Assembly (NCBI RefSeq): GCF_014646055.1
Contig: NZ_BMMS01000038.1
Span: 1 to 50,754, forward strand
Length of the DNA stretch: 50,754 bases
Reading direction: 5' to 3'
Source: Wenjunlia tyrosinilytica
GTDB taxonomy: Bacteria; Actinomycetota; Actinomycetes; Streptomycetales; Streptomycetaceae
Shown here: positions 2,761 through 19,573 of the stretch, piece after piece
How the letters are laid out: each line of letters begins with the position of its first letter
Position numbering within the stretch: the stretch's first letter is position 1
The notes under the pieces: generated by a model
What the model was told of the DNA's origin: nothing
Seen by the model: only the letters and a program-made list of their open reading frames with translations
Database searches by the model: none
Position numbers and translations under genes: made by a program

Positions 2761-3083
2761 CCCGGGAGCCCGGCGCCAGCAGCGCGCAAGCGGCCCCGAT
2801 GCTCATCGGGCGATTCCTGACGCGAGCTGTAGTCAGACAACGGCGGCGGGCCGCGCCCCTTTCTCCTCACCCAGGGAATGGGGCAGACACCGAATCCGGG
2901 GTTATTGGCTTCCCGCCCCTCGCTACCCCGACCAAAGTAAAGGCCGTGTTCGCAAGTCTGACCGACAGCTTCGCACTCCACTTTGCAGCCCTCGGCAAGC
3001 AGCCGTGAATCCGGTAGGGGCGATCACACGAAGGGTTTTCCACAGGCTCATCGGATCCAGCGCGATCTGGCTACGCTGTGCCC
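2761..3083. other. Intergenic region upstream of the methyltransferase gene
   Basis: No gene is supported here. The only candidate signal is TACGCT at 3072-3077, a TANNNT-type -10 hexamer ending six bases before the ATG at 3084. This is the spacing seen for leaderless transcripts in actinobacteria. A clear -35 hexamer at the usual distance is not visible. Confidence 0.4.
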
Positions 3084-4643
3084 ATGGCAGCAGAGGTAGC
3101 AGCAGCGGAAACGGATCTTGTAACCCGCACGGAAGCGAGGAGGCAGGAGTCATCTTCGGCTCTTGATCCCAAGGAGCGTGCGAAGCGCGGTCAGTACTTC
3201 ACGCCTGCCCCCGCTGCGGACTTCATTGCCTCGCTGGCGCGGCTGGACGGCGCAGCCCCGATTCGGCTCCTCGACCCCGGTGCTGGGACGGGGTCTCTGA
3301 CCGCCTCGGTCGTAGCGCGCATCCTCCGCGAACACCCACAAGCCCAGATCAACGTGACCGCATGCGAGAACGATCCACAGCTTCTCAAGACCCTCTCTGC
3401 AACGTTGGAGGACTGCGCGAGCACGGCCCGAGCAGCCGGCGGAAGAGTTGAGACCACCCTGGTGAAGGACGACTTCATCACCTGGGCGACCGAGGATGCA
3501 GGACTGTTCGGTGAGGATCGGGGTCCGTTCGACCTCGTAGTCATGAACCCCCCCTACAAGAAGCTGGCCGCCAACTCACGTGAGCGCAGGGCAGTCGCTG
3601 CGGCCTGCACAGAGACCTCGAACCTCTATTCGGCATTCATGGCACTGGGGATCCACCTCCTCGCCCCAAGCGGCCAGCTCGTCGCCATCACGCCCCGGAG
3701 CTTCGCGAACGGCCCTTACTTCCGACCGTTCCGCAAGTATCTTCTGGACCGCATGCATATTGATCGCGTACACCTGTTTGAATCGCGAAACAAGGTATTT
3801 GCCGATACGGACGTACTCCAGGAGAACGTGATCTTCTCGGCAACGCGCACCGACACGTCCGACCGAGGCCCCATCATCGTTTCCTCAAGCCACAGCTACG
3901 GCGATGCAATCCGCAGCCGCTCGGTGGAGTACGGCGAGATGGTGAATCCAGAAGACGGCGAGCACTTCATCCACATCAGCGCAGATGAGGAAGACGCACA
4001 GCTCGCGGCTACCCATGCCAACCTTCCCGCCACCCTCACACAAATCGACTGCCAGGTTTCGACGGGGCGCGTTGTAGACTTCCGCTCCAAGGAACACCTG
4101 CGAGCCGACCCAGAAGAGGGCGCGGTTCCCCTAATCTATCCGCTTCACATGCGTAACGGCGGAATCCATTGGCCTGTACCCGGCGCCAAAAAAAACAATG
4201 CGATCATGCTCACCCCAGACAACCATAAGATGACTTTCCCATCCGGGTATTACGTTGTGGTGAAGCGCCTCTCCTCCAAGGAGGAGAAGCGCCGCGTGGT
4301 CGCTACCGTATTCGATCCAGAAGTGACAACCGACCCTCGGATTGGATTCGAGAATCACGTAAACGTGTTCCACAGGTCAGGGGCCGGACTCCCCAAGGAC
4401 GTCGCACGCGGTCTGTGTTTCTGGCTCAACTCCACCCTGCTAGACCGGCTCATTCGTCGGTTCAGCGGCCACACACAGGTGAACGCGACCGACCTACGGA
4501 ACCTCCGCTACCCGAGCGAGGCGCAGCTGCGAGCCATCGGTGGCGAGTGGATAGAGGATGGGTGGCCCGACCAGGAGAAGCTCGACGACCTCGTCGAACG
4601 TCATCTAGAGGTGGAGGAGGCCGTCTCGTCCGGCGGAGCGTAG
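3084..4643 (+). CDS. N6-adenine DNA methyltransferase of a PstI/BsuBI-type restriction-modification system
   Basis: The 519-residue protein transfers a methyl group from S-adenosylmethionine to adenine in the recognition site, protecting the host from the partner nuclease at 4788. It has the RGQYFTP motif near residues 36-41, the cofactor loop DPGAGTGSL near 64-72, and the N6-adenine catalytic motif NPPY at about 155-158. These are followed by a long C-terminal target-recognition half. From memory, M.PstI and M.BsuBI are about 500 residues, so the length fits. I chose ATG 3084 over GTG 3078 because no ribosome site is visible and TACGCT ends six bases upstream, suggesting a leaderless message. 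The region looks less GC-rich than the core genes downstream, as expected for an acquired cassette. Family membership comes mainly from pairing with the nuclease gene. Confidence 0.88.
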   Translation: MAAEVAAAETDLVTRTEARRQESSSALDPKERAKRGQYFTPAPAADFIASLARLDGAAPIRLLDPGAGTGSLTASVVARILREHPQAQINVTACENDPQLLKTLSATLEDCASTARAAGGRVETTLVKDDFITWATEDAGLFGEDRGPFDLVVMNPPYKKLAANSRERRAVAAACTETSNLYSAFMALGIHLLAPSGQLVAITPRSFANGPYFRPFRKYLLDRMHIDRVHLFESRNKVFADTDVLQENVIFSATRTDTSDRGPIIVSSSHSYGDAIRSRSVEYGEMVNPEDGEHFIHISADEEDAQLAATHANLPATLTQIDCQVSTGRVVDFRSKEHLRADPEEGAVPLIYPLHMRNGGIHWPVPGAKKNNAIMLTPDNHKMTFPSGYYVVVKRLSSKEEKRRVVATVFDPEVTTDPRIGFENHVNVFHRSGAGLPKDVARGLCFWLNSTLLDRLIRRFSGHTQVNATDLRNLRYPSEAQLRAIGGEWIEDGWPDQEKLDDLVERHLEVEEAVSSGGA

Positions 4644-4787
4644 TGTCCGCGACCGCAGCCGCAGAGTGGCTATTAAGGTTGGCGTGGCGGAAACTTGGCG
4701 CCCCTCATCCACTGGCAGCGCGCCCCCTCGATGCCCTGTAGCCTGAGCCGCGCTCACTGCATCGATGTGGCTGGGGAGGGCCAGCGA

Positions 4788-5780
4788 GTGACAAAGGCAC
4801 AGCAAGAAAAGAAGCTCGAAGAGGCGAAGGATATTCTCGCCGCTATAGGGATGCCCCCGAAGCAGCAGAACACCCGGACCGCGCTTGTCCTGCTTGCAAT
4901 GTTCGACCTTCGCCCGGATCAAGAATGGGCGGAGGTGAGCTCCAACACACTCGGCATCACCGAGTGCATGGATTGGATGGCCGCCTACTACCCCGATATA
5001 CCAAAAGGGACGAAGGACCCGAGCAGGTACGCCCCTAACAGTCGCGAGTCCGTGCGCAAGGAATCTGTCCACCAGCTCATCGATGCCGGCATCCTCGTCA
5101 AGAATTCTGACGCCCCTGGACGGGCCACAAACGATAAGAACAACCGATACCACCCGAGCCAGCTGGCTATAAGGGCGCTAATGACCTACGGAACTTCGAC
5201 ATGGCAGGAATCGCTTGACGAATTCCACGCCGAATGGGAGAAGCTGACCGAGCTCTGGGCTGCCGAGAGGTCGATTCATCGAGTCCCCGTCAGGCTTCCC
5301 GACGGGAGGGAGGTCGAGCTCAGCCCTGGCGAGCACAGCGAACTCATCGGGACTGTCGTCGAACGCTTCGCATCCCAGTTCACCCCGGGAGGCACGGTCG
5401 TCTACTTGGGCGACACGGGCTCCAAGTGGATCGTCAACGAGCTCGAGTACCTCGCCGAGCTCGGCGTGGTCGTGGATGCTCACGGCAAGATGCCTGACGT
5501 GGTCATTCACTACACGGAGAGGGACTGGCTGGTGCTTGTAGAGGCAGTCACCTCGACCGGGCCAGTCAACGGTTTGCGGGTCGCACAGCTCAAGAAACTC
5601 TTCGAGGGAGCGCGCCCGGGACTGGTCTTCGTCACTGCCTTTCAGACGAAGAGGAAGTTCCGCCAGTTCGCAGCCGACATCGCGTGGGAAACGGAAGTCT
5701 GGGTCGCGGAGGAAGAGACGCACATGGTGCACTTCAACGGCGAGCGCTTCCTCGGCCCCTACGACGACACTCACGAATAA
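4788..5780 (+). CDS. Type II restriction endonuclease, BsuBI/PstI family
   Basis: The 330-residue protein should cut unmethylated DNA. The family's known members PstI and BsuBI recognise CTGCAG, but the specificity here is inferred. The N-terminal half (residues 1-160) is helical with a winged-helix feel. The C-terminal half carries VVYLGDTG near 204-211, KMPDVVIHY near 234-242 and VEAVTSTGPV near 251-260, the conserved core of BsuBI/PstI nucleases (a PD-(D/E)XK-like arrangement). PstI is 326 residues. GTG 4788 is chosen because ggggaggg lies seven bases upstream; the open frame extends to 4695 but has no such site. The gene lies 144 bp after the methyltransferase on the same strand and is followed by a strong bidirectional hairpin. 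Confidence 0.88.
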   Translation: MTKAQQEKKLEEAKDILAAIGMPPKQQNTRTALVLLAMFDLRPDQEWAEVSSNTLGITECMDWMAAYYPDIPKGTKDPSRYAPNSRESVRKESVHQLIDAGILVKNSDAPGRATNDKNNRYHPSQLAIRALMTYGTSTWQESLDEFHAEWEKLTELWAAERSIHRVPVRLPDGREVELSPGEHSELIGTVVERFASQFTPGGTVVYLGDTGSKWIVNELEYLAELGVVVDAHGKMPDVVIHYTERDWLVLVEAVTSTGPVNGLRVAQLKKLFEGARPGLVFVTAFQTKRKFRQFAADIAWETEVWVAEEETHMVHFNGERFLGPYDDTHE

Positions 5781-5785
5781 GCGAC

Positions 5786-5816
5786 GAGGGCCGCCCCGCG
5801 AGGCGGAGCGGCCCTC
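5786..5816. terminator. Shared bidirectional terminator between nuclease gene and 5S rRNA
   Basis: Arms 5786-5799 (gagggccgccccgc) and 5803-5816 (gcggagcggccctc) pair over 14 positions with one mismatch around a three-base loop. It sits six bases after the nuclease stop codon and about eight bases beyond the 3' end of the minus-strand 5S gene. It can therefore serve both converging transcripts. Confidence 0.75.
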
Positions 5817-5823
5817 AATCAGA

Positions 5824-5941
5824 GACCGGCGACAACCTACTCTCCCACGAGGTCCCCCTCGCAGTACCATCGGCGCTGGCAGGCTTAGCTTCCGGGTTCG
5901 GAATGTTGCCGGGCGTTTCCCCACCGCTATGGTCACCGAAA
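5824..5941 (-). rRNA. rrf: Orphan, diverged 5S ribosomal RNA
   Basis: The minus strand reads as a full 5S rRNA. It has the universally conserved stretches ACATTCCGAACCCGGAAGCT, AGCGCCGATGGTACTGC and GGGAGAGTAGG in the right order and spacing. The ends close helix I (CGGTGAC with GTCGCCG, one wobble pair), and the arm CGAGG pairs with CCTCG. Compared with the usual Streptomyces 5S as I remember it, several stem positions differ on both sides so that pairing is kept. No 23S or 16S sequence lies upstream (5942-6312), so this is not part of an rrn operon. It sits between a restriction gene and a GHKL gene inside an island. It may be a foreign 5S copy, a relic, or a repurposed structured RNA. Exact ends are uncertain by a few bases. 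Confidence 0.85.
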
Positions 5942-5950
5942 GTTCGGTGA
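5933..5950 (-). repeat. Inverted repeat overlapping the 5' end of the 5S RNA
   Basis: The sequence tcaccgaaagttcggtga is a perfect eight-base inverted repeat with a two-base loop. In the minus-strand transcript, the leader segment ucaccgaa could pair with uucgguga, which is the 5' strand of 5S helix I. The leader could therefore compete with, or aid processing of, the mature end. Confidence 0.6.
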
Positions 5951-6312
5951 GCGACCCCTTGCGTAGGAGCGCTTTCGTGAGGTGTGTATACAGGGCGGGT
6001 GCCGACTGAATGGACACGCCCAGCTGGACCCGCCCACCATGCACAGCTGCCGAAGAGTGGGCGGGACGGCAGCAGAGGGCAACCGGCTACCCACATGACC
6101 GCATGGGGCGGACATCGGATGGATCCCGCAGTCAACGATGCTCAGGTGGGCCGACGGGGCCTTTGCGTAGTGATGGATGAGAACCAGCCAAGTGTGCCGC
6201 GCGCCAGGGGAGTTATCCGGCCACTGGCCCGTGACCGTCTGTGCTGATGGCTACGCTGACGTGCCTCCAATAGATCTTGTGAATCGGGCGGATCTAACCC
6301 GAAGGAGGACGC
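5951..6312. other. Intergenic region between the 5S gene and the GHKL gene
   Basis: No gene is supported in this 360-bp stretch. It must hold the divergent promoters of the minus-strand 5S gene and the plus-strand GHKL gene. On the minus strand a TATACA motif lies about 50 bases upstream of the 5S start, but its -35 partner is not clear. The short open frames here look like chance. The GHKL ribosome site gaaggagga lies at 6300-6308. Confidence 0.4.
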
Positions 6313-8352
6313 TTGAGCACTCATCTGCGCTTTGCACCGGAGATCCTGATCCGCCTGGGTGAGGAGCTGATCCCCCATCCAGACCTCGGGGTGATCGAGC
6401 TGGTCCGCAACGCGTACGACGCGGACGCGACGAAGAGCACCGTCCAGCTCCACAACGCCACGCAGCCTGGCGGCACCCTTGTCGTCGAGGATGACGGTGA
6501 TGGCATGACAGCTGAGGAGATCCGAGAGGGTTTCCTCCTCATCGGGCGGTCGTCGAAACCAGGAACACCGGACAGCCGGTCCAACCGACGCCGGATTGGA
6601 GAAAAGGGCCTCGGCCGACTGGCAGCGCTTCGTCTGGGACGCCGGGTAGAGCTGGTGTCCCGCCCGCGAAGCGAACCCGGCATGGAGCACACGCTTGTCA
6701 TCGACTGGTCTGACTACGACTCGGTTCGCTCCGTTGAGGAAGTTGAGCTCTCGATCGTTAGCCGGGCTACCTCAAAGGCTCCCGGCACCTCGCTGGCCGT
6801 ACACCGCTTGCGGCAGGGCTTCGACAAGGAGCAGATGGAGCGTCTTGCACGGGCCATGCGGCTACTTACAGGCTTCTTCAACGACGAGGATACCGGTTTC
6901 ACAGCGACGCTGGTCGCCCCGCAGTTCGAGCAGGTATCCGACGCGGTGAACCGCAGCTTCTTCGACGAGTACGAGTACAAACTCGAGGCCCATCTCGATG
7001 AACAGGGCTATGCGAGCACAGTCCTCTACGACTGGAAGGGCCAGGTGATCACACGCGGAGACCACATCGATGTGGCACCGGGCGACCGCAGCGGCCGCTT
7101 GCAGCCCCCGCTTCAGTACCAGGCGCCAGCTGCCTCCTTCGAGCTGTGGATGTTCCTGTTGAACAAGCGCTCGTTCGAACTGCGAGGGTCGAAGCGCAAG
7201 TTCGCTGATCTACGGCCTTGGCTACGCGTCGTAGGCGGTGTGCACCTGTTCCATCGGGGGCTGCGCGTGCATCCCTACGGAGACCAGGGCTTCGATTGGC
7301 TAGACCTCAACCTCCTCCGGGCTCGTAGCCCGGAGCTGCGGCCTTCAACCAACACCAGCATCGGGCGAGTGTCGGTCGAGGACCCGGAGGGCTCGCTCAT
7401 CCCCAAGACCGACCGGATGGGGTTCCAGGAAAACGCCGCGTTCATAGAACTTCGGGAGTTCGCACGAAGCGCCACAGACTGGGCGGCAAGGGAGCGGAAG
7501 CGGATCCGAGACGAGGAGCGGCTTGGGAAGCCTGCACCAACTCAACGTGCTGCATTCATCCCTGCCGTTAAGCCCAGTACGGCTTCCAAGGATCCCTCAA
7601 GGGGTGGGGAGGCTGGTGAGTTCGTGGCGCAGCCGGAACTGCTGACTCTGGTACCCAGTGTGCCCGCCCAGCGTCACGAGGCCCGGTTGCCCATGGTGCC
7701 GCAGGAGCGTCTTCTCTATCGGTCGCTTGCCACGGCCGGGATCCTTGCTGTCGCCTTCGCGCATGATGTGGCCGCCGAGGGCGAGAGTGGTCTCGGGGCA
7801 GTCGAGCTTGCAGGGATCGCTAGTCGGGCCGCCCAGACGAGGGCCTTCCAGGTTCGGATCCTGGAACTGAACGAGGTGGTCGGGAGTGCCTTGAGTGTGA
7901 TGCGGCCTCTGCTGGAGCGGCGGCGCATCACTCTCCATGAGGAGCTCCGGGATGAGCCGATCCACGTCGCGGGCGCAGCTGCTGACCTGGAAGCGGCGAT
8001 TTTTAACCTCGCCGCCAACGCCCTGAGTGCGCTGGCAGGAGCAGGTGACCTCTTGGGGGAGCGGGCGATACTAGTTCGGATTCGGGTAGATGGTGGCCAC
8101 GCGGTGGTCGACTTCTCGGACTCAGGCCCCGGCATCGTTGATGTCGACATCGTGGATATGTGGCGCCCGGGTGTTACCGGCGGAAGGTCCAAGGGCGTCG
8201 GCCTCGGACTGACGGTGGTCCGAGACGCAGTGGCCGACATGTACGGACCGTTGGCAGACACTGGGGAGGGCTGCGTTTCGGCAGATGCGTATGGTGAGCT
8301 CGGAGGGGCCTCCTTCCACATCCGTCTGCCGTTGCACTCCGCCGTCGAGTAG
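6313..8352 (+). CDS. Double-GHKL ATPase: Hsp90/MORC-like N-terminus plus histidine-kinase-like C-terminus
   Basis: This 679-residue protein has two ATP-binding folds. The first shows an N box (E29, N33, AYDAD), DDGDGM at 60-65 and IGEKGLGRLAAL near 95-106, as in MORC/MutL/Hsp90-type ATPases. A central region of about 300 residues with no motif I recognise follows. The second fold shows an H-box-like AFAHDV with His484, an N box (NLAANAL), DSGPGI near 603 and GVGLGL near 628, as in sensor kinases. No membrane segment, PAS or receiver domain is seen. TTG 6313 is chosen because gaaggagga precedes it by four bases. Established work links MORC-type ATPases to bacterial restriction systems, and a PstI-type system lies immediately upstream. 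A role in defence is inference; the output partner is not in the window. Confidence 0.75.
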   Translation: MSTHLRFAPEILIRLGEELIPHPDLGVIELVRNAYDADATKSTVQLHNATQPGGTLVVEDDGDGMTAEEIREGFLLIGRSSKPGTPDSRSNRRRIGEKGLGRLAALRLGRRVELVSRPRSEPGMEHTLVIDWSDYDSVRSVEEVELSIVSRATSKAPGTSLAVHRLRQGFDKEQMERLARAMRLLTGFFNDEDTGFTATLVAPQFEQVSDAVNRSFFDEYEYKLEAHLDEQGYASTVLYDWKGQVITRGDHIDVAPGDRSGRLQPPLQYQAPAASFELWMFLLNKRSFELRGSKRKFADLRPWLRVVGGVHLFHRGLRVHPYGDQGFDWLDLNLLRARSPELRPSTNTSIGRVSVEDPEGSLIPKTDRMGFQENAAFIELREFARSATDWAARERKRIRDEERLGKPAPTQRAAFIPAVKPSTASKDPSRGGEAGEFVAQPELLTLVPSVPAQRHEARLPMVPQERLLYRSLATAGILAVAFAHDVAAEGESGLGAVELAGIASRAAQTRAFQVRILELNEVVGSALSVMRPLLERRRITLHEELRDEPIHVAGAAADLEAAIFNLAANALSALAGAGDLLGERAILVRIRVDGGHAVVDFSDSGPGIVDVDIVDMWRPGVTGGRSKGVGLGLTVVRDAVADMYGPLADTGEGCVSADAYGELGGASFHIRLPLHSAVE

Positions 8353-8799: not shown

Positions 8800-9346
8800 C
8801 TCGCATCGGGGCGGAACCGACCCCGTCACGTCGGACAGTCCCGAGCTCGCTCTCACCGCCCGCGCGCTCAAGGAACGGCGCCTGATCACCATGCCCAAGC
8901 AGAATGGGAAGTGGCAGGCGGAGATCACTGACGCAGGACGCTTCTAACTGAGCACGGCCATCACCCGGACCGGCCGGAACCAGCTCCGCGCAAGCAGCGA
9001 TCGGCAGGTGCCGAGCAAGACGCGAACACCCCCTCCAGCTCAGAAGCGAGCCGCAGCCTCGTCAACGACGGCGCCCCAGCGCACCGCGAAGCCCTCACGG
9101 CCGTCGTCGGCGGAAGTCGGAGCGGCTTTGATCGCGGAGGTAACAGCAGGCTGGGCGGTTCCTCCGGATCCCGAACCCCAACGACGAGGAGCGAGCCCGC
9201 TAGCGCAGGGCGTTCGACGCAGCCCGGCAGTGTGCCCCCGAGGGGTACAGCCTGAAGTACAGCGGGTGGGCGAAGGGGGACTTCTTCCTCGGCCTGCTCA
9301 GAGTGACCGGCGAGGATGAGACCTCGGCGGAGGGTCAGTCTTGCTG
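8800..9346 (+). pseudogene. Decayed actinobacterial hypothetical gene
   Basis: Three frames can be joined. The first reads LALTARALKERRLITMPKQN then GKWQAEITDAGRF (winged-helix-like) and stops at 8945-8947. An overlapping frame continues with LLTEHGHHPDRPEP and a variable linker. A third reads RRFLRIPNPNDEERAR, hits a TAG at about 9209-9211, then continues AFDAARQCAPEGYSLKYSGW and AKGDFFLGLLRVTGEDETS to a TGA near 9346. I believe intact versions are common hypothetical proteins in Streptomyces, but I do not know their function. At least one frameshift and one internal stop mean it is dead. The 5' end is not defined. Confidence 0.5.
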
Positions 9347-9556
9347 ACGGCCCGAGACGGGCTTACTGACGGGGTATCAAATCAGCAGTCTCCGAAAGCC
9401 TGCACCAGGCGACAACAGTCACCTGCAGACCGCTTGCGATCCAAGTCAGGTCAGGGGACGTCATCCGGCGCACGGGTAGACGGCACAAGGGGTGGCCACG
9501 CCAACATGGAGTCTGCGGTAGTGCACGAGAACACTGGTGCAGCGGAGGCGAAGCCC

Positions 9557-9778: not shown

Positions 9779-10308
9779 AGTTGTCCGAGCCGGAGAAGCG
9801 CGAGTACGAGGAAGCCGACCGAAAGTTCCGCGAGCGGCACGCCGACTGCCGGGATGCTCGGTGGAGCGTCAGTGGTTCTCGGGTGACACATTGCTGTTTC
9901 TGCTGTCCACTGCCGCCGATGGGGCCGAAGCAGATCGAGGGCCTCGCCAGGCTGTTCGCTTCCTGGCCCTCACCGGAGGAACGCAAGAAGGACCTCGATA
10001 CCTGGAACCTCATTCTCCGTTGCGACCACGTGGTGCCCCACATTCAGCATCGCGAGGGCACCTACGTTTCCACCCGCGTCGTCGACTGCCCAGAATGCGG
10101 GGAGCGTCGCGGGGTGGTGAGCCGTGAGCGGGTAGGGCCCGCGTATCGCGATGGCGGGACCATTCGTGAGCGTGCGGCAGCCGATCGAGGACGGCTCGCC
10201 CGGGAACTGGCAGCTGCCGAGGCGAAGCTGGCCCGTCAGCAGAAGAATGCGGCGGCAACCCAACGTCGTATTGCCGATATCCAGGACAGGCTCGGCAGCG
10301 AGTCCTGA
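9775..10308 (+). CDS. Cysteine-motif protein coupled to the preceding gene
   Basis: The 177-residue product contains HCCFCCPLPP near residues 39-48, a CDHVVPH/QH segment near 84-93, and DCPECGERRG near 105-114, which together could bind one or two zinc ions. The last 50 residues are a charged coiled-coil-like helix (RERAAADRGRLARELAAAEA and onward). The start overlaps the previous stop by four bases, which decides ATG 9775 over the earlier in-frame ATG 9721. I do not recognise the family. The zinc-ribbon look would suit nucleic-acid binding, but that is a guess. Confidence 0.6.
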   Translation: MKLSEPEKREYEEADRKFRERHADCRDARWSVSGSRVTHCCFCCPLPPMGPKQIEGLARLFASWPSPEERKKDLDTWNLILRCDHVVPHIQHREGTYVSTRVVDCPECGERRGVVSRERVGPAYRDGGTIRERAAADRGRLARELAAAEAKLARQQKNAAATQRRIADIQDRLGSES

Positions 10309-10500
10309 TGAGATGAAGCGCAGCGGGCGACGCCGGGTCATTGCCCGGCATCGCTTGCGATGGGTTACCGGCTTGGGAGCCTTCGTGGATCGAGGTGTCA
10401 GGACTCAGCGGCCGAATCGCACCTGGGCCAGTGCTTCGGCGGGGTGACGGCCGGGTCCGTGATCTGGAGGCACTTCTGCCGGGTCGGGTCGATCGCGACA
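10309..10500. other. Intergenic remnant
   Basis: The minus strand continues open from the broken regulator next door as DPTRQKCLQITDPAVTPPKH to a stop near 10398. That stretch does not match the expected continuation of the family, so it looks like unrelated sequence joined at a deletion. Nothing else is supported. Confidence 0.3.
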
Positions 10501-10530
10501 ACGTCACGGAACGACGACGTCACGGAACGA
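10501..10530. repeat. 16-bp-period duplication that breaks the regulator fragment
   Basis: The sequence acgtcacggaacga occurs at 10501-10514 and again at 10517-10530. A 16-bp insertion is not a multiple of three and explains the frameshift in the overlapping minus-strand relic. Confidence 0.8.
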
Positions 10531-10680
10531 GTAGAGGATCGGCCTCTCACTGGAGATCTCGGGCACGAGTATCGCGCCCTTGGGCCCGGAGGCTCGGCGC
10601 CAGTGGGACAGCTGGCGCAGCGTGGCGCGGGAATGAGCCGCAGCGGGTTTGGGTTCTTACGACGCCCCGCACCTCCTTCC
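10501..10680 (-). pseudogene. MerR/DUF433-like regulator, N-terminal fragment with a 16-bp duplication
   Basis: The minus strand encodes HSRATLRQLSHWRRASGPKG followed by AILVPEISSERPILYSFRDV. This resembles the N-terminal helix-turn-helix of MerR-like proteins that carry DUF433 (family pattern: RQLxxWRR, PLLVPE, YSFRDVVALRTF). The frame then stops because the 14-base sequence acgtcacggaacga is repeated with a 16-bp period at 10501-10530. Removing one period restores VVAID but not the expected RTF continuation, so the gene is also truncated. The start is not visible. Confidence 0.45.
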
Positions 10681-11125
10681 GCCCCCATGCCCCCATCGAT
10701 ACGGGCCTGAACGAACCCCATTTTCCTAGAAGCCACTCGGCACAGAAGTCGAAGGGCCCATTCAGGGCGGGCCTGGCGCACTCCATTGCCACACACGCCG
10801 CTGCCACGGAACCGCGCTACAGGCCCGGTCTCCTGCTTCTGGGGTTGTCCCACTCCCACGGGCACGGCGAGAGGCGTTGCTGCAACCAATGCCGAGCGGG
10901 GCGCGGCCGGCCTCGGGACCGACGTGCCTGCCTGGCCTGTCATTTTCTGGGCTCCCCCGGATGGTGCTCACAGACCACGAGACAGAGCGCCTGGTCGAGC
11001 CTGTCGCCAGAGGAAGCGGGCCAGCCCGGCTTGTTGACGGAGACCGAGCCGCTGCTTGGCACACGTCCGTGGCATTTTCGGCCACACACCGGCGGCGACC
11101 GGATGCGCCGCGTAACCTCACGGGC
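10681..11125. other. Gene-free stretch upstream of the Wadjet operon
   Basis: Only chance open frames are seen across this 445-bp stretch. The one useful signal is TAACCT at 11113-11118, a TANNNT-type -10 hexamer ending seven bases before the jetA ATG. No ribosome site precedes that ATG, so the operon is probably read from a leaderless message. I see no clear -35 element. Confidence 0.4.
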
Positions 11126-12748
11126 ATGGGGGCATCCGCATCCGGCGCAGCTCAGGACGCCGACGAGGAGGCGCGCCGACGGCTGAACGCGTACACGTAC
11201 CTGAGCGCGCCCGAGCGGCTGGAGCACGTCGCGATCATGCGGGTCTTCTGCGGAACACTGCTGGCCGATCTTGCCGTTCCGGACATCATGGCGAAACTGC
11301 GCCAGGCCGGTGGCTCTGCCGCGGGGCTCGACGCCGACCCCCTCACGGTCCGGCTGGAGCAACTGGTGCAGTGGGGAAACCTGCTGCGCAGCAGCCATAT
11401 GGTGAAGGCGTCCAGCATCAGCGAGTACCAGCGTTCCCGCTCGCGCTACCAGCTGTCGAAACTGGGAGAACGCATCCAGCGGGACGCCGACGGGGTCCTG
11501 GCCGAGGCCGACGCTGCCCGCGAGGTGAGCAACGAACTGCTGGCACTGGTCGAGCGCGGGCTGCGGGAGCTGGCCGACCTCGTGACCGCGCCGGGCGGCA
11601 TCGAGCCGCAGGACGGGCTGGAGCGGGTCAGCACGCTGTTCGTGCAGTTCACCGAGTTCGCGGACTCCATACGCGACTTCTACGCCTACCTCGGCCAGGT
11701 GCTGTCCCGCTACGACCTGGACAGCGCCGAGTACCAGGGCTTCAAGGAACTGCTCCTGGACTACGTCGAGGCGATCACGGAGGACGTGGCGTTCCGCGCG
11801 CCCCGTATCTCGGGGGCACTGGACACCCTGTTGCCGCACATCCCGGCCCTGCTGGACCGACTGGACACCCATGCCCAGGGCCTCGTCGGGCTGTCTCCGC
11901 AGGGCGAGAACCGCATGGAGATCCGGGTCCAGCGCAGTCGGGGCCGCGAGCTCGCGGACTGGGAGGGCCTGCGCGGCTGGTTCAGCGACACCGACGGCCA
12001 GGGCAGCCAGGTCGACCAGCTGCGGGACGCCACCCTGCGCGCGTTGCAGTCGCTGCTCGCCAACGCCAAGCGGATGCTGCGGTCGGCCACCGGGGAGATG
12101 TCCCGGCGCAAGGATCTGCTGCGGCTGGCCCGCTGGTTCGACGAAGCGGCGCCGCAGGACGCACACGACATCGCCGTCGCCGCCTTCGGACTGTACGGCG
12201 CCCGCCATCTGGGCATATCTCCGGCCACCGACGAGGTGGTGCCCGCCTACACAAGCTGGTGGACCGGTCCGGGGGTCGAGGTACCGGTGGCCCTGCGTGA
12301 AAGGGGCAGCCACGCCCAGCGGGGCCGGGCCTCCGCGGTGGAGGACCACTCCGCGCAGAAGCAGCGGCTGAGGGAGGCCGCCCGTCAGCGGGCAGTAGCC
12401 AGGGCAGAAGCGGCGGACGAACTGCGCAGCGCGTCCGGCCGGTTCGCCGAGGTACGACTCACGTCGGCGGCGCTCGGGCTGCTCCTGGAGCTGCTGGCCA
12501 CGGCACTCGGAAACGCTCAGCTCAGGAGGCGCGCCGGTACGGACGGGCAGGGGACGGAGGGGTTCGACCTGGACTCGGCGCGCAGCGAGGACGCCGAACT
12601 GGGCATCCGGCTCACCGTGCGCCGGACGGCGGGCACGCGGACGGTGCTGTACTCGGCCGACGGCGACCTGCTGCTGGACGACCTGGAGCTGGACATCGGT
12701 CGTATCTCCGCCGCGGTCGACGGCGAAGCGGAGGCGAGCGTGTCATGA
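11126..12748 (+). CDS. jetA: Wadjet component JetA, DUF2397 (TIGR02677) family
   Basis: The 540-residue protein is the kleisin-like subunit of the Wadjet condensin-type complex, which holds the ATPase heads together while the machine extrudes and tests circular DNA. The N-terminal segment near residues 20-50 (LNAYTYLSAPERLEHVAIMR) and the following RSRYQLSKLGERI region are characteristic of DUF2397 proteins. A largely helical middle follows, and a C-terminal winged-helix-like part lies near residues 430-520. ATG 11126 is chosen because TAACCT lies seven bases upstream and homology begins soon after; the open frame runs back to 10877 without similarity. The stop overlaps jetB by four bases. 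All four genes of the operon are intact and overlap in this way, so fixed stoichiometry is likely. Confidence 0.9.
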   Translation: MGASASGAAQDADEEARRRLNAYTYLSAPERLEHVAIMRVFCGTLLADLAVPDIMAKLRQAGGSAAGLDADPLTVRLEQLVQWGNLLRSSHMVKASSISEYQRSRSRYQLSKLGERIQRDADGVLAEADAAREVSNELLALVERGLRELADLVTAPGGIEPQDGLERVSTLFVQFTEFADSIRDFYAYLGQVLSRYDLDSAEYQGFKELLLDYVEAITEDVAFRAPRISGALDTLLPHIPALLDRLDTHAQGLVGLSPQGENRMEIRVQRSRGRELADWEGLRGWFSDTDGQGSQVDQLRDATLRALQSLLANAKRMLRSATGEMSRRKDLLRLARWFDEAAPQDAHDIAVAAFGLYGARHLGISPATDEVVPAYTSWWTGPGVEVPVALRERGSHAQRGRASAVEDHSAQKQRLREAARQRAVARAEAADELRSASGRFAEVRLTSAALGLLLELLATALGNAQLRRRAGTDGQGTEGFDLDSARSEDAELGIRLTVRRTAGTRTVLYSADGDLLLDDLELDIGRISAAVDGEAEASVS

Positions 12749-14070
12749 CCCTTCCCTCGACTCACGACGTGGCCCTGGCGGCCGAGCGCCGTACCGCCGC
12801 CCGGCTGCTGCTCGCCCACCCCTTGGTCGCGTCGGACGGCCCCCATGCCGATCTCTTCCCGCTGATCCGCAGGCACGCCGACTGGCTGGGCAAACGGTTC
12901 CAGCAGGTGCTCGGCTACCGCCTGCTGGTCGACAGCTCCTTCGCCCGGCTGTTCAAGGCGGGGCTGGGGGCCGGTTCGGGTCACCGGCTGGAGCGCTCCT
13001 CCGGCACGCCCTTCACCCCGCACACGTACGCCTGCCTCGCGCTGGCGCTGTCCGTGCTGGTGACCGCGCCCGAGCAGATGCTGCTGTCTCAGCTGGTCGC
13101 CGACATCAGGGCAGCCGCGGCCGACGCGGGGATCGAGCTGGAGGAGACGGGCCGGGTGGCCGGGAAGCGGACCCTGGTCACGGCTCTGCGTCAGTTGGTC
13201 GATTGGGGCATGCTCATCGAGACCGAGGGCCATGTGACCGCGATTGCGCAGGAGGCGGGCGGAGAGGCCCTGATCACGGTGGATCGGGAGCTGGCACGCG
13301 CGGTCGTCGCCGGCCCGCTCACACAGGCCCGGGACGGCGCCGACCTGGTCCGGCGGGCAGCGGACCCAGGGTTCGGTGGACCTCGCACCTATGTGCGCCG
13401 GATGCTGGTCGAGACGCCCGTCGTCCACCTCGACGAGCTGACCGATGCCGAGCGCGACTGGCTGCGCACCCGGCAGCGCCGGGAAGCCCAGGCTTTCTCC
13501 GAACTCCTGGGTCTGGAGATGGAGATCCGTGCCGAGGGGGTCGCGCTGGTGGATCCGGAGGAGGAGCTGACGGATCTGCACCTGCCGGGCACCGGGACCG
13601 TCGCACAGGCCGCGCTGCTGCTGGCGGAGCGGCTCGTGGAGCGGCTTCGGCCGCAGGAACCAGGGCATCCAGCGGCTGGAGGGACTCTCGTCATCGGGGT
13701 GGCTGTGCCGGACGGCCTGGTGGACGAGCTGCTGGCCGGGCTGATCGCCGAGTACGGGCAGCGCAGCAACTGGCGGCGCGGCTACCTGGAGGACCTCCCC
13801 GCCCTGCGGGAGGCCGCGCTGGATCTGCTCGTCCGCATGCAGCTGATGGCCCGCGCCGGGCGGCTGCGTGCCGAGGGGGAAGGGCTGCCGGAGGGGTACG
13901 TCGAAGAGGCACCGGAAGGACGCACGGTGACCGATGTCCATGGCGCACGGCCCGGCGGCGACGGCTGGGTGCTGCTGGCCGCAGCGGCGCGCTACGCCAC
14001 CCACGTCACCGTGCGCCCTGCCACCGCGGCCGGCAAAGGCACGGACGTTCAAGAGGAGCTGCCGCTATGA
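12745..14070 (+). CDS. jetB: Wadjet component JetB, DUF2398 (TIGR02678) family
   Basis: The 441-residue protein is the MukE-like partner that binds the kleisin JetA. Recognised landmarks are an N-terminal helical region (AAERRTAARLLLAHPLVASD), the stretch HADWLGKRFQQVLGYRLLVD near residues 33-52 followed by SSFARLFKAG, and TYACLALALSVLV near 94. An acidic tail (DVQEELPL) ends the protein. ATG 12745 overlaps the jetA stop in an ATGA, and the gene's own stop overlaps the jetC start in another ATGA. The order and size match the DUF2397-DUF2398-TIGR02680-TIGR02679 cassette. I see no frameshift or missing part. Confidence 0.9.
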   Translation: MTLPSTHDVALAAERRTAARLLLAHPLVASDGPHADLFPLIRRHADWLGKRFQQVLGYRLLVDSSFARLFKAGLGAGSGHRLERSSGTPFTPHTYACLALALSVLVTAPEQMLLSQLVADIRAAAADAGIELEETGRVAGKRTLVTALRQLVDWGMLIETEGHVTAIAQEAGGEALITVDRELARAVVAGPLTQARDGADLVRRAADPGFGGPRTYVRRMLVETPVVHLDELTDAERDWLRTRQRREAQAFSELLGLEMEIRAEGVALVDPEEELTDLHLPGTGTVAQAALLLAERLVERLRPQEPGHPAAGGTLVIGVAVPDGLVDELLAGLIAEYGQRSNWRRGYLEDLPALREAALDLLVRMQLMARAGRLRAEGEGLPEGYVEEAPEGRTVTDVHGARPGGDGWVLLAAAARYATHVTVRPATAAGKGTDVQEELPL

Positions 14071-17000
14071 CCACTGACGCGCGTGGCCTCGTTCCGCTGC
14101 CGCGTTCCGGCCCCGCGACGACTACCAGCGTCCGCTTCCGGCTGCACCGGGCGGGCATCCAGAACGTCTGGCAGTACGACGCACAGGAGTTCTCCTTCGG
14201 CCACGGACGGCTGCTGCTGCGCGGCAAGAACGGCGCGGGCAAGTCCAAGGCCCTGGAAATGCTGCTCCCGTATCTTCTGGACGGCGACTCCCGGGCACTG
14301 GACGCCACAGGCACCGGCCGCACCACGCTCGCCTGGCTGATGCTGGACGGGTTCGAGCAGACCAACCGCCTCGGCTACCTGTGGGCGGAGTTCCGGGGCA
14401 CGGCCGACGACGGCAGTCACCGCCACCTGACGCTCGGTGCCGCCATCCGTGCCTCGAAGTCGACGCAGAAGGCACTGCCGACGTTCTTCGTCACCCCGCT
14501 GCGGATCGGCGAGGACCTGCAGCTGGTCGAGGCCGGGAAGCCGCTGCCGGTCGACCGGCTCAAGGAGATCGTAGGCTCCGACAACGCGACCGAGCGTGCG
14601 GTCCTGCACCGCTCCCGTGTGGCCCGGGAACTGTTCGGCATCACCGACGCGACGCGTTACCGCAACCTGACCCAGCTCCTCCACCGGTTGCGGCGCCCCA
14701 CGGTCGGGGACCGCATCGAGCACGGGGGCCTGGCCTCCCTGCTCAGCGAGACCCTGCCGGGGCTCGACGAGGACGTGGTCGAGAAGGTGGCGCGCAACCT
14801 CCACGACCTCGACGCCGTCCGGGACGAACTGGGCCGCCTGGAACGCACCAACGCTGCACTGCGCACGTTCCTCACCAGTTACCGCGGCTACCTGGCCGGA
14901 GTCCTGCGCACATCCGCCCAGAGAGTGAGCCACGAGCTGGGCGTCCTCCAGCAGCGGCGCCGGGCTGCCGGAGACGCCGCACAGCGGACGAGCGACCTGA
15001 GGACGCAAGAGGAGGAATCGGAGGGCCGACTGGAGACCCTCCGCGACGGGGAACAGGCCGCCCGGACCGACCTGGCCGCCCTGCACGCCAGTCACGCCTA
15101 CCGCAGCCTGGGCGAACTGTCGGAACGCCGCGGCACGGTGGAGGCGCTGCACTCCGCGGCCGTCGCCGCCTTTACCACTGTGCGGAACGCACACGACGCG
15201 GAGGAGAGCGCGGCGGAGCGGCTGGCCGAAGGTGTCGAACACCTCGGGAGCCGGCTGGCCGAGCTGGGAACCGAGCACCGGGAACTGCTGACGCAGGCAG
15301 AGAAGGCCGGGCTTCCCACCGGCCATCTCGGCGAGGCGGTGGCCCTGCCGGGCACGGTTCTTGCCCAGGCCACCGAGACAAAGCTGACCACTCCGGACGG
15401 GGAGACGCGCACCGTACGGCACCGGTCGGTGGTCCGCGTGGACACGGCCACCACGCACGAGGGGCTGCGGTCCTGGCAGAACCAACTGGAGAATGTCGAG
15501 GCGGTCGCGAGGAACCGGGCCCGGATGGTTCAGGAGGTGACCCGTCTCATCTCGCGGGCGGACGAGGCCCGCGCCCGGGCGGCTCAGGCCGATGCCGAGC
15601 GGGAACGGCTGGAGGGCGAGGCGGAAGAGGCCGCCGGCCGTCTCGACGTCAGCCGCCAGAAGGTCGCCGAGGAGAGCGGCGCCTATGCGCGCCGTGTCAC
15701 CGAGTGGGCGGCGCACACGGGGACCGCGCTGGGGCCGGGCTGCCCGCCACTGGACGCCGTCCACGCCGCCGTCGGCCGCGAGACCTCCACCGACGCACCG
15801 TTCGCGGACCGCACACTGCCGCCCGACATCGACAGCCAGGCGTGGCAGGCCGCTCAGGCCGCCCTGGAGTCGTACGGCGAGGAACTCACCGCGCGCCGGG
15901 ACGCCCTGGCGCTCGGCTCCGGCCGGCTCGGCGAGGAACTCGACCGCCTGGCCGAGCAGAAGCGGGACTGGGAGCGGCGTACCGACCCTGAGCCGACGGC
16001 CCCGCCCCATCGTGTCGCCGCGAGGACGCCGGGCAGCGGAGCACCCTTCTACCGGCTGGTGGACTTCGCGGACGACCTGGCTCCGGCCGACCGGGCCGGT
16101 CTGGAAGGAGCCCTGGAGGCGAGCGGAATCCTGGACGCGTGGGTGGGCGCGGACGGCGTCCTTTTCGATCCCGGCACCCGGGACACTCTTCTCCGGCCCG
16201 GTCCCGTGCTGTCGGACGGGCCGAGTCTTGCCTCGGCCCTGCGCCCGGCCCCTGAACCGGGTTGCGGCGTCACGTCCGAGCGGGTGGAGCGTCTGCTGAC
16301 CGCGCTCGCGCTCGCGCCAGCAGAGGAGGCCTCCGCTCACGACGCGGTGTACTACGACGGCAGTTGGCGTCTGGGCGTCCTCAGCGGCCGTCACGACAAA
16401 GGTGTCACCGAGTACGTGGGGGCCGCCGTACGTGCCGAGACCCGGCGGCGCATCCTCGCCGAGCTGGAGGAGCGGATCGCGCAGACCGAACAGCGACTGG
16501 CCGACGTCCGCGAGGAGCTCGCCGTGGCCGATGCCATGCGTCGGGCTCTCACTCTCGCGGAGCGGGACTTCCCCCGGGCGCGGAACCTCGCGGATGCCTG
16601 GAGCAGGACCGAATCAGCCGAGAGGGCCCTGGGTGACCTGACCACCAAGGCGGCCCGAGCGGCACGGCTGGCCGAGGAGGCCCGCGTTCTCGCGGTATCG
16701 GCGCGCGCCGAGGCGGAAGCCACCTCGACCGCCCACGACCTGCCCAGCGACCCCGCCGCCCTGGACCGCGTACGCACGGCGCTGGCTGCTCTGCTCAGCG
16801 GTATCGGGCATCTGCGCAGGGCCGTCGGCGGTACGGGCGAGCGGCTCGGCGCGAACCAGGCGGATGCCGAGCGGCACGAACGTGCCCGAGAGGACCGCGT
16901 GGACGCGGAGGAAGGCTACGGACTCCACCTCGCCGCGCTGCGTACCGCGCAACAGGACCTGCGCACCCGCGAGGAGGCCATCGGGTCGTCCGAAGAGGAG

Positions 17001-18305
17001 ATCCTCACCCGCGAGCAGGAGGCCAAGCAACGTATCGCGAACGCCGTCCACGCCCTCCCCGCGGCGCAGCGAGCCCGCAACGAATTCCACGACCTGCGCG
17101 TGCGCGCGGAAGAGGAGGAGAAGCGCCTGCGGGGGAACCTGGCGGACCAGGAGACGGCGGTCATCGACACCGGCAGCGCTCTTCGCGGTGCTCTCGGCCG
17201 ACAAGAGGTGGTGCGCGGTGCCGGGCTGGACCGGTCCTCGCTGCCCGAGTACGTATCGGACGATCCCGGCGCGGACGTCCGCAGCCGTCTGCGAGCACTG
17301 CGGGCGCTCGCCGACGCCGTGGAGCAGGCCCTCGGCCGCCCGAAGGGCGAGGTGTCGGACAGTACCCTGCTCAACCGCCACACCGAGCTGCGCGACCAAC
17401 TGGCCGGCGGGTTCGACGCGCAGCTGGAAGAACGCGACGGGATCAAGGTGTGCCGCCTGGTCGACGACCACGGATCCCATGACGTCGCGGCCGTGGGCGA
17501 GCGGATCGCGGTCCAGGCCGCGGAGGCCCGGGGACGGCTCACCGAGCGCGAGCGCGAGGTGTTCCAGCGGTTCCTGACCGGCGAGCTCGGCGACCACCTC
17601 TCGGCACAGGTCATCACCGCGGCGAACCTGGTCGCAGCTCTCAACGACACCCTGCGGACCGTACGCACATCCCACGGTCTTGGTGTCGAGCTGCTGTGGA
17701 AGCTGGACGAGGACGTGGACGCGGACGTGCGCGCGGCCGTCGAGCTGCTGCGCAGTGCGTCGAGCCTCAGGACGCGCGAGCAGACCGAGCAGCTCCGCGA
17801 GGTACTGCAACGCCGGATCGAGGACGCCCGACGCGCCGACCCGTCAGCCGGTTACGCCGCCCATCTGCGGACCGCGCTGGACTACCGCGACTGGTTCCGT
17901 TTCCACACCTTCGTGGTCGAGGACGCGGCCCCGGGCCGCCGTCGGAAGCTCACCGGCCGGACCGGGCTCAGCCAGGGCGAGCAGCGGGTGCTCTCCTACC
18001 TCGTGCTCTTCGCCGCGGCTGCCGCCCACTTCACCAGCCTCGCCGAGTCGGCACCACACGCGCCACGGCTGATCCTCCTGGACGACGCCTTCGCCAAGGT
18101 CGACGAACCCACCCATGGCCGACTGGGCCGCATCCTCGTGGACCTCGATCTCGACTTCGTCCTCACCAGCGAGCGGCTCATGGGCAACTGGCCCGAGGTT
18201 CCGTCTCTGCACATCTACGAGTGTCTGCGTGATCCCCATGTGCGCGGGGTGGCCACCCTGCACTACACCTGGGACGGTCGGCACCGGCGTCTGGTGTCGG
18301 TGTGA
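14067..18305 (+). CDS. jetC: Wadjet component JetC, SMC-like ATPase (TIGR02680)
   Basis: The 1412-residue protein is the MukB/SMC-like motor that drives loop extrusion. Walker A (GKNGAGKSK) lies at residues 53-61, two long coiled-coil arms rich in Glu, Arg and Ala flank a central hinge-like region around residues 600-760, the ABC signature GLSQGEQRVLSY lies near 1300-1311, and Walker B (LILLDDAF) lies near 1336-1343. The arrangement of head, coil, hinge, coil and head is complete. ATG 14067 overlaps the jetB stop; the open frame extends to 13203 but only in the shadow of jetB. The stop overlaps jetD (GTGA). Such proteins are often misnamed SbcC. Here the DUF2397, DUF2398 and TIGR02679 partners decide the identity. 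Confidence 0.93.
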   Translation: MTTDARGLVPLPRSGPATTTSVRFRLHRAGIQNVWQYDAQEFSFGHGRLLLRGKNGAGKSKALEMLLPYLLDGDSRALDATGTGRTTLAWLMLDGFEQTNRLGYLWAEFRGTADDGSHRHLTLGAAIRASKSTQKALPTFFVTPLRIGEDLQLVEAGKPLPVDRLKEIVGSDNATERAVLHRSRVARELFGITDATRYRNLTQLLHRLRRPTVGDRIEHGGLASLLSETLPGLDEDVVEKVARNLHDLDAVRDELGRLERTNAALRTFLTSYRGYLAGVLRTSAQRVSHELGVLQQRRRAAGDAAQRTSDLRTQEEESEGRLETLRDGEQAARTDLAALHASHAYRSLGELSERRGTVEALHSAAVAAFTTVRNAHDAEESAAERLAEGVEHLGSRLAELGTEHRELLTQAEKAGLPTGHLGEAVALPGTVLAQATETKLTTPDGETRTVRHRSVVRVDTATTHEGLRSWQNQLENVEAVARNRARMVQEVTRLISRADEARARAAQADAERERLEGEAEEAAGRLDVSRQKVAEESGAYARRVTEWAAHTGTALGPGCPPLDAVHAAVGRETSTDAPFADRTLPPDIDSQAWQAAQAALESYGEELTARRDALALGSGRLGEELDRLAEQKRDWERRTDPEPTAPPHRVAARTPGSGAPFYRLVDFADDLAPADRAGLEGALEASGILDAWVGADGVLFDPGTRDTLLRPGPVLSDGPSLASALRPAPEPGCGVTSERVERLLTALALAPAEEASAHDAVYYDGSWRLGVLSGRHDKGVTEYVGAAVRAETRRRILAELEERIAQTEQRLADVREELAVADAMRRALTLAERDFPRARNLADAWSRTESAERALGDLTTKAARAARLAEEARVLAVSARAEAEATSTAHDLPSDPAALDRVRTALAALLSGIGHLRRAVGGTGERLGANQADAERHERAREDRVDAEEGYGLHLAALRTAQQDLRTREEAIGSSEEEILTREQEAKQRIANAVHALPAAQRARNEFHDLRVRAEEEEKRLRGNLADQETAVIDTGSALRGALGRQEVVRGAGLDRSSLPEYVSDDPGADVRSRLRALRALADAVEQALGRPKGEVSDSTLLNRHTELRDQLAGGFDAQLEERDGIKVCRLVDDHGSHDVAAVGERIAVQAAEARGRLTEREREVFQRFLTGELGDHLSAQVITAANLVAALNDTLRTVRTSHGLGVELLWKLDEDVDADVRAAVELLRSASSLRTREQTEQLREVLQRRIEDARRADPSAGYAAHLRTALDYRDWFRFHTFVVEDAAPGRRRKLTGRTGLSQGEQRVLSYLVLFAAAAAHFTSLAESAPHAPRLILLDDAFAKVDEPTHGRLGRILVDLDLDFVLTSERLMGNWPEVPSLHIYECLRDPHVRGVATLHYTWDGRHRRLVSV

Positions 18306-19573
18306 GCGGGCTGCCCTCCGCAACGCGCGACTGGCTGACGGGACCTGGGCTCACCCGGCTCTGGGAGGGGGTACGCAAACGTCTGGAGAGCAACGGCGTG
18401 CAGGTCACCGGTTCGCTCCGGCTGACCGTGGTGAACGCCCAGGAACGCAACGACCTGTCTCTCCTCCTGGGCAAACCCCTCACAGGTGCCGCAGTGACCG
18501 TACGGCTCGACGTGCTCGACGCACGGCTACGCGTCTCGGCCGCCGGACTCGGCCTCAGGGAGACCCTTGAGGAACTCGGCCCGCCACTCACCGACCGCCG
18601 TGCCGCCCGCGCGGACGTTGCGGCGCGGCGGCAGCGGGTCTGGTCGTCCCTCGCTTCATCGTTGGACGCCTCCCCCCTCGCCGGCCAGGAATGGCCCCGG
18701 CAGTGGTACGACCTGCTGCGCCGTGCCGGCGTTCCGAGAGGCGTGACGCCCGAAGCAGCGTCATGGACACTCCAGCAGGCGGTCCAAGTCCTCACCGTTC
18801 TCCTCGGCTCCGAGCGCAGCGGCACACACGGCCGAGGAGAACTCGCCGCCGTGGTGACCGGCTCCGCTCACGGCCTGGACGACGGCACATGGCTCGCACG
18901 CCTCGTCCAACGCGGTGTCGCCCTCGCCCATGGCACCGAGTTCCCCGACGACGCGGCCGGTCGACGCGCTCTGTGGCGGTTGGTGTCCATCACGCCGGAC
19001 GAGGTCTCCAGCACGGTGCTGGCCTACGGGCTGCGACCCGTCGGCGAGGGCTGGCGGGAGCGTGCCCTGCGGGAGCGGGCTGAACATCACTCCGAAGCCC
19101 ACCTCACACCGCGCGACCTGCATGGCCTGCGGCTGCGACTTCCCGCCGGAACAATGATCCACATCTGCGAGAACCCGCGCGTGGTGGAAGCCGCGGCGGA
19201 CGCGGCCTGCGTCCAACCCCTGGTGTGCACGTCCGGCAGCGCCGCCACGGTGGTCCTCACGCTTCTCGACGCCCTCGCCGCCACGGGCTGCCGCTTCGCG
19301 TACCACGGTGACTTCGACTGGCCGGGGGTCGCTCTGGCCAACCGGGTCATCCGCCGCTACGACGCCTTGCCGTGGCGCATGGGCACCGCGGATTACGAGC
19401 ACCTGGTCGCTCGCAGTCAGGCTGAGGGCATCCCTCAGCTGGCGCTCGACGGCCAGCCGGTCAGCGCGGACTGGGACCCGGATCTCGCCCCTGCCATGAC
19501 CGCCCTCGGCGTCGCGCTCCATGAGGAGGCCACCCTCGAACTTCTGGTCGACGACCTGTCACACCAGACGTAG
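18302..19573 (+). CDS. jetD: Wadjet component JetD, Toprim-type nuclease (TIGR02679, DUF2399)
   Basis: The 423-residue protein is the nuclease that cuts DNA once the JetABC motor has tested it as a small circle. The C-terminal half carries Toprim-like residues: Glu290 in ICENPRVVEAA, and Asp337 and Asp339 in YHGDFDWPG, which would bind the catalytic metal as in topoisomerase VI subunit A. The N-terminal part (RLWEGVRKRLESNG, NDLSLLLGKPL) is the arm-like domain typical of the TIGR02679 group. GTG 18302 overlaps the jetC stop by four bases, which fixes the start. All catalytic acidic residues are present, so the system is likely active. A terminator-like hairpin follows at 19598. Confidence 0.9.
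   Translation: MSGLPSATRDWLTGPGLTRLWEGVRKRLESNGVQVTGSLRLTVVNAQERNDLSLLLGKPLTGAAVTVRLDVLDARLRVSAAGLGLRETLEELGPPLTDRRAARADVAARRQRVWSSLASSLDASPLAGQEWPRQWYDLLRRAGVPRGVTPEAASWTLQQAVQVLTVLLGSERSGTHGRGELAAVVTGSAHGLDDGTWLARLVQRGVALAHGTEFPDDAAGRRALWRLVSITPDEVSSTVLAYGLRPVGEGWRERALRERAEHHSEAHLTPRDLHGLRLRLPAGTMIHICENPRVVEAAADAACVQPLVCTSGSAATVVLTLLDALAATGCRFAYHGDFDWPGVALANRVIRRYDALPWRMGTADYEHLVARSQAEGIPQLALDGQPVSADWDPDLAPAMTALGVALHEEATLELLVDDLSHQT

Follow-up and report, generated by a model that had tools for sequence, protein, structure and literature searches.

A stand-alone 5S rRNA gene recurs beside BsuBI/PstI-type restriction endonucleases

Type II restriction-modification systems of the BsuBI/PstI kind, SdaI among them, join an endonuclease to an adjacent N6 methyltransferase, the same pair that is found in the cassette described here. 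PstI and BsuBI cut CTGCAG, which we take as the candidate site of cassette enzymes of this family. Ribosomal RNA genes are regarded as core genes, bound to rrn operons and rarely mobile. Orphan or additional bacterial 5S genes form the other described group, and the term 'orphan 5S' reportedly occurs in two Francisella genome papers; such genes share with the present one a place outside the rrn operon, and no link to a restriction system was found there. A literature search of open-licence papers likewise showed, among the matches listed, no report of an orphan or solitary 5S linked to restriction or defence.

The 5S gene of the window and its cassette

The window, the whole 50,754-base stretch of Wenjunlia tyrosinilytica DNA analysed here, carries a stand-alone 5S rRNA gene at 5824..5940 on the minus strand. 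The gene lacks CTGCAG, matches RF00001 (cmscan, 5940-5824) at 97.1 bits over model positions 1-120 against a gathering score of 38, and is the sole Rfam match over its gathering score in the window. No 23S or 16S was detected in the window by cmscan, so the gene does not stand in its usual rrn place behind a 23S, and no tRNA was detected there by ARAGORN. An earlier note on this DNA had described a full-length minus-strand 5S with no 16S or 23S nearby, placed between a PstI-type nuclease and a GHKL ATPase, and both parts of this description are borne out. On one side lies a BsuBI/PstI-family type II restriction endonuclease gene (4788..5780, plus strand), which, scanned as the open reading frame 4695-5780, matches PF06616 (E 1.8e-63, 213 bits) and PF17728 (E 1.5e-48, 164.6 bits), both above the curated cut-offs; it matched no family in NCBIfam, and SdaI (2ixs, 221 bits) is the sole solved relative found by sequence. 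The adjacent N6-adenine methyltransferase that characterises BsuBI/PstI restriction-modification is present in the same cassette (3078..4643, plus strand; Eco57I-type, PF07669/PF02384; PADLOC MTase_II, 565 bits). The GHKL ATPase gene on the other side (6313..8352, plus strand; PF13589, PF02518) is a neighbour only. The methyltransferase side of the cassette holds two transposase genes (PF07592 and PF13546; 134-1489 and 1716-2477), and a Wadjet-type JetABCD operon (10877-19573; PADLOC JetA2/B2/C2/D2) is found about 2.5 kb past the GHKL gene.

A BLAST-type search recovered the host rrn 5S as three matches at contig ends, which cut the gene off and confine the comparison to 77 bases, and these are 88% identical to the window 5S. 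On this ground the window 5S is not a host rrn copy, and the passive relic that the earlier note had tied in part to identity with host copies is not favoured. The window copy is the only 5S given for the draft genome by a covariance-model search (150 of 633 candidates scored), no 23S was found in the draft host assembly, and its rrn operons are collapsed. Compared with rrn types, the window 5S shows 14-23 mismatches, with 17-18 to the two commonest types and 17 to an rrn 5S of Streptomyces A1136. The suggestion of a foreign 5S carried by the island is compatible with the latter value, but no donor was found for it, the best rrn match in 297 genomes of the family being 90% identical (G006) and the three rrn matches of a species-wide scan being 86-89% identical.

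Recurrence and anatomy of stand-alone copies

A pattern for this 5S subtype, fitted to the window and Streptacidiphilus jiangxiensis copies, checked on known loci and loosened at one position for the species scan, occurred at eight places in a set of about 85,000 species genomes. At three of them, in MAGs labelled Candidatus Nanopelagicales, Micropruina and Propionibacteriaceae, it falls in an rrn operon with a 23S; the other five are stand-alone, in S. jiangxiensis and in Streptomyces AC1-42W, A1136, NBC_01214 and SirexAA-E. A PF06616 endonuclease (Pfam) adjoins each of the five stand-alone copies, which are 94.7-99.1% identical to the window 5S over 114 bases, the adjoining enzymes being 24-92% identical to the window enzyme. 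With a seventh stand-alone 5S of a different sequence type, which adjoins another PF06616 enzyme in genome G172, all seven copies stand beside a BsuBI/PstI endonuclease. The collapsed rrn operons of the draft might suggest an rrn-operon relic or an assembly artefact, a reading we find scarcely credible given that six more genomes, among them the complete record of SirexAA-E, show the arrangement and that conservation is far higher in the 5S than in its flanks; an rrn relic was rejected on this conservation and recurrence.

Searches starting from the enzyme (by endonuclease, Pfam family and alignment, in overlapping sets of 297 family, 391 order and 286 class genomes) returned 17 loci in 16 genomes, with a 5S beside the enzyme at four: the window's own locus, A1136 (G424), S. 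jiangxiensis (G045) and G172. By taxonomy these are four of the eight loci in the window's family and none of the nine outside it, of which three are weak negatives (G670 at a contig end, G666 and G546 as fragments). One contig of G299 encodes two distinct enzymes of the BsuBI/PstI type at a distance of 2-3 kb (L066, 6030-10198), one of them in an 847-codon open frame. A second pattern, combining a -10-like box with the start of a family-type 5S and derived from known stand-alone copies, matched four of 394 family genomes, once in an ordinary rrn operon and three times in stand-alone copies (own, G045 and G172) that all adjoin an endonuclease. The stretches scanned around stand-alone copies, of at least 3 kb on the upstream side, contained no 23S, and homing of the enzyme into an rrn 5S is not supported, as no stand-alone copy lies beside a 23S in them.

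It is the endonuclease, and not the GHKL gene, to which the 5S is linked. A GHKL gene is common to the window and A1136, and at five of the seven stand-alone loci the scanned flanks gave no GHKL match, by which a GHKL partnership as a general rule was rejected; in G070, GHKL and endonuclease are present and the 5S is absent beside the enzyme. The G070 locus (L053, 9224-14869) places a 78% identical GHKL beside a distant BsuBI/PstI-type enzyme and a methyltransferase. Since it repeats the pairing without a 5S, GHKL and this enzyme family are linked more than once. Of the earlier suggestions, that of a structured RNA is supported in the sense of one carried with the neighbouring system, with the endonuclease rather than GHKL as the linked gene; the 5S is kept in related islands, where its absence had been named as a mark of a relic.

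Within the window, an extended -10-like box (TGTATACA; 5985..5992, minus strand), recognised by conservation only, lies 44 nt upstream of the 5S, and each of the seven stand-alone copies has a similar box whose end lies 40-49 nt ahead of the 5S (TGTATACA, GGTATACT and TGTAAGCT once each, TGTATGCT and TGTATACT twice each), with no common -35 hexamer apparent by eye among the seven. Between box and 5S there may be a leader hairpin (5950..5973, minus strand; -11.5 kcal/mol, z -1.7), for which the evidence is weak; a consensus of five of the seven leaders has nine pairs, three of them with changes on both sides. A GC-rich terminator-like hairpin, read directly and assigned to no strand (5786..5816), occupies the interval from the endonuclease stop to the 3' end of the 5S, and a comparable hairpin was seen by eye 3' of the 5S in 7/7 copies.

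At five loci 43-72 bases separate the enzyme stop from the 5S; the distance is 333 bases for NBC_01214 and 937 for AC1-42W, which has a transposase gene in between. The 5S of NBC_01214 is flanked on its 3' side by a remnant, about 180 bases long, of an enzyme gene of the window type (DNA identity 82-88%), and a second, intact, SdaI-like enzyme lies on the other side of an intact 5S (L147; remnant at 9279-9452, intact restriction pair at 9904-12503). Near the SirexAA-E copy is a STAND NTPase gene with a SIR2-like domain (L148, 5187-8453), and in the G172 cassette (L052, 13085-14692) a tyrosine integrase gene is directly beside the methyltransferase. At five of the seven loci the enzyme gene lies tail to tail with the 5S, an arrangement that, with the G172 integrase gene, would suit a role in regulation or integration, the 5S or its DNA controlling enzyme expression in cis or forming an attachment or recombination site. 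We consider such a role highly improbable: the orientation varies, with S. jiangxiensis and the intact enzyme of NBC_01214 codirectional with the 5S, the AC1-42W transposase gene separates the partners, no 23S surrounds the stand-alone copies in the stretches scanned, and partial 5S matches elsewhere in the window are at most 14 bases long. Duplication of an attachment site was rejected, no partial match in the rest of the window exceeding that length.

Carriage by phages or plasmids was rejected on the records covered. The subtype 5S pattern occurred at no place in the viral_contigs set, an alignment search of viral contigs gave no relative, and BLAST found no 5S at 15 viral loci that encode a related endonuclease. 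Phage records gave one 5S match, at a contig end (81% over 57%). A related endonuclease was found in 119 plasmid records, and 54 plasmid records matched the 5S, the best-ranked among the 20 of 54 listed being 85% identical over 71% of the query; one plasmid record fell in the 90-95% identity band.

Conservation and fold

Between the window and A1136, the 5S is identical at 114 of 117 positions, and at 113 of the first 114, against 84.8% for the endonuclease DNA, 67.5% for its third codon positions (32.5% differ), 69.5% for the promoter-leader and 62.2% for the further spacer. At the third-position rate, the probability of at most one change in 114 bases is about 2e-18, and a pseudogene or neutral 5S is excluded by this comparison. 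The SirexAA-E comparison gives 113 of 117 for the 5S, 91.2% for the endonuclease DNA, 80.6% for third positions, 40.7% for the promoter-leader and 44.5% for the further spacer.

The compensatory stem changes claimed earlier are real, with three pairs of the window 5S changed on both sides relative to an A1136 rrn 5S (8-109, GC to AU; 81-92, AU to GC; 82-91, GC to AU), and selection on the fold is supported across ten sequences, in which 91.4% of cells pair compared with 87.2% in shuffled and 25-45% in slid alignments. Cells changed on both sides number 19 versus 6.8 in shuffles, and 0/500 shuffles were as high; two controls were weaker: as many pairs with a double change turned up in 10 of 500 shuffles, and as many 'further pair types' in 258 of 500, so that the latter measure is not above shuffles. 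The differences among stand-alone copies, and between these and rrn copies, mostly preserve pairs. As read from the sequences, the anatomy and selection of the stand-alone 5S are well supported, and a ribosome-competent 5S would be the simplest reading, because the covariance scores equal those of rrn copies.

One possibility is that a once-captured 5S was kept as a useful passenger for extra 5S supply, its linkage to the enzyme reflecting common cassette descent. The 5S distance to the window copy does roughly track that of the enzyme, with 3-4 differences beside enzymes of 88-92% identity, 8 in AC1-42W (42%) and 9 in S. jiangxiensis (24%), but NBC_01214 (6 differences, remnant enzyme) and G172 (22) are exceptions, and neutral decay is excluded. 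More than descent is also suggested by the different 5S body of G172 beside another enzyme and by the retention of the NBC_01214 5S after its first enzyme decayed, and we regard the passenger reading as rather unlikely.

The variant 5S could instead be a translation-protecting part of a defence, by which some ribosomes would resist a phage factor or toxin acting on the host 5S. The terminal helix and 3' tail set the stand-alone subtype copies apart from rrn 5S, defence genes lie nearby (JetABCD in the window, the STAND NTPase/SIR2-like gene near the SirexAA-E copy), and passages of PMC10914614 describe a phage protein, PhiKZ014, that clamps the end of the host 5S rRNA. This explanation is unlikely in our judgement, as it leaves the 7/7 link to one endonuclease family unexplained. 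It also counts against it that we know of no 5S-acting factor in Streptomyces phages.

CTGCAG sites and a possible restriction-proof spare

Three host rrn 5S types (G172, A1136 and SirexAA-E) share a single 6-bp palindrome, CTGCAG. It is present in each of the 29 rrn 5S genes that were read from six carriers, whose genomes hold more copies; the window's own genome has three matches to a pattern of CTGCAG in 5S context. Six of the seven stand-alone 5S genes lack it, including the window, S. jiangxiensis and AC1-42W copies, a loss that the six subtype copies may owe to one event, and the G172 copy retains it. Genome-wide 5S positions were taken for the nine non-carriers, defined by an enzyme, no adjoining 5S and a readable rrn 5S. 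Seven (G371, G451, G299, G300, G649, G602 and G725) are free of CTGCAG in all 18 copies read, and two (G106 and G070) have it in the rrn 5S. The resulting table of 7/2 in non-carriers versus 0/7 in carriers gives a Fisher p of 0.003, with ascertainment (three carriers came from the 5S search) and taxonomy mixed in it, and the family-only, enzyme-first set (4/2 versus 0/2) gives a one-sided p of 0.21. Within the family, 249 of 297 genomes, a set that includes some with no assembled 5S, have CTGCAG in a 5S-type context. The G106 enzyme is SdaI-like (347 bits) and presumably recognises the 8-bp SdaI site CCTGCAGG, which does not occur in the G106 rrn 5S, and the enzymes of G070 and G172 both belong to a distant subfamily. 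GGGNCCC, along with five other gapped palindromes, offers only a lead for the G172 type; noted post hoc, these are common to the three rrn 5S types and absent from all four stand-alone sequences compared.

The exclusive link to one enzyme family calls for an explanation beyond a ribosome-competent 5S. We tentatively propose, at somewhat less than an even chance, that the gene is a functional, probably independently transcribed 5S of a BsuBI/PstI-type restriction-modification cassette that acts as a restriction-proof spare, a proposal made because of the CTGCAG pattern, the cost of 5S loss in E. coli and the self-restriction that follows loss of a system. Ammons et al. 1999 are said to have found that 5S gene loss costs E. 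coli more fitness than expected. Passages of PMC11324026 describe how cells that lose a type II system restrict their own DNA at unmodified sites. The proposed cut target would be the rrn 5S, the last gene of the rrn operon, with CTGCAG in the carriers' copies read. Where methylation is incomplete, on cassette entry or through imbalance of the two enzymes, cutting at this site would remove the 5S while the upstream 16S and 23S would still be transcribed; a CTGCAG-free cassette 5S with its own putative promoter would then sustain the supply of 5S to ribosomes and make the restriction genes less costly to bear.

The spare-5S mechanism, which we infer, is moderately supported, on small numbers, and suggests that some restriction systems may come with a spare component of the ribosome. 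Also counted in its favour are AC1-42W, with its transposase gene between enzyme and 5S, and the intact 5S of NBC_01214 next to an enzyme remnant and a second enzyme. Two results tell most strongly against it: CTGCAG is retained in the G172 copy, and in G070 it is present in the rrn 5S with no 5S beside the enzyme. NBC_01214 also counts against it, the 5S there having, by its flanks, outlasted its first enzyme partner beside an intact enzyme that is SdaI-like, as does the presence of 11 CTGCAG sites in the window alone, because of which failed methylation would be harmful elsewhere too.

If a 5S travels with a restriction system under strong selection, defence would be tied directly to ribosome supply, a natural case of heterogeneous ribosomes would be at hand, and the cost of restriction systems in highly transcribed genes would become testable in ordinary laboratory Streptomyces. 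The stronger claim, that an rRNA gene is a third functional part of restriction-modification, a cleavage-proof, separately transcribed 5S protecting translation from the system's own endonuclease, is somewhat doubtful; were it true, the cassette 5S would be, to our knowledge, the first ribosomal RNA immunity element of a defence system. We know of no report of an rRNA gene as third member of a BsuBI/PstI-type system. The cassette 5S resembles rrn-operon 5S (RF00001) in length, fold and score, stand-alone copies scoring 93-107 bits and full rrn copies of the carriers 98-107, and differs from it in having its own upstream box and downstream hairpin, in the lack of a nearby 23S and, for the window copy, in the loss of CTGCAG. 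Set beside the BsuBI/PstI and SdaI systems, the cassette differs in its recurrent third member, an rRNA gene.
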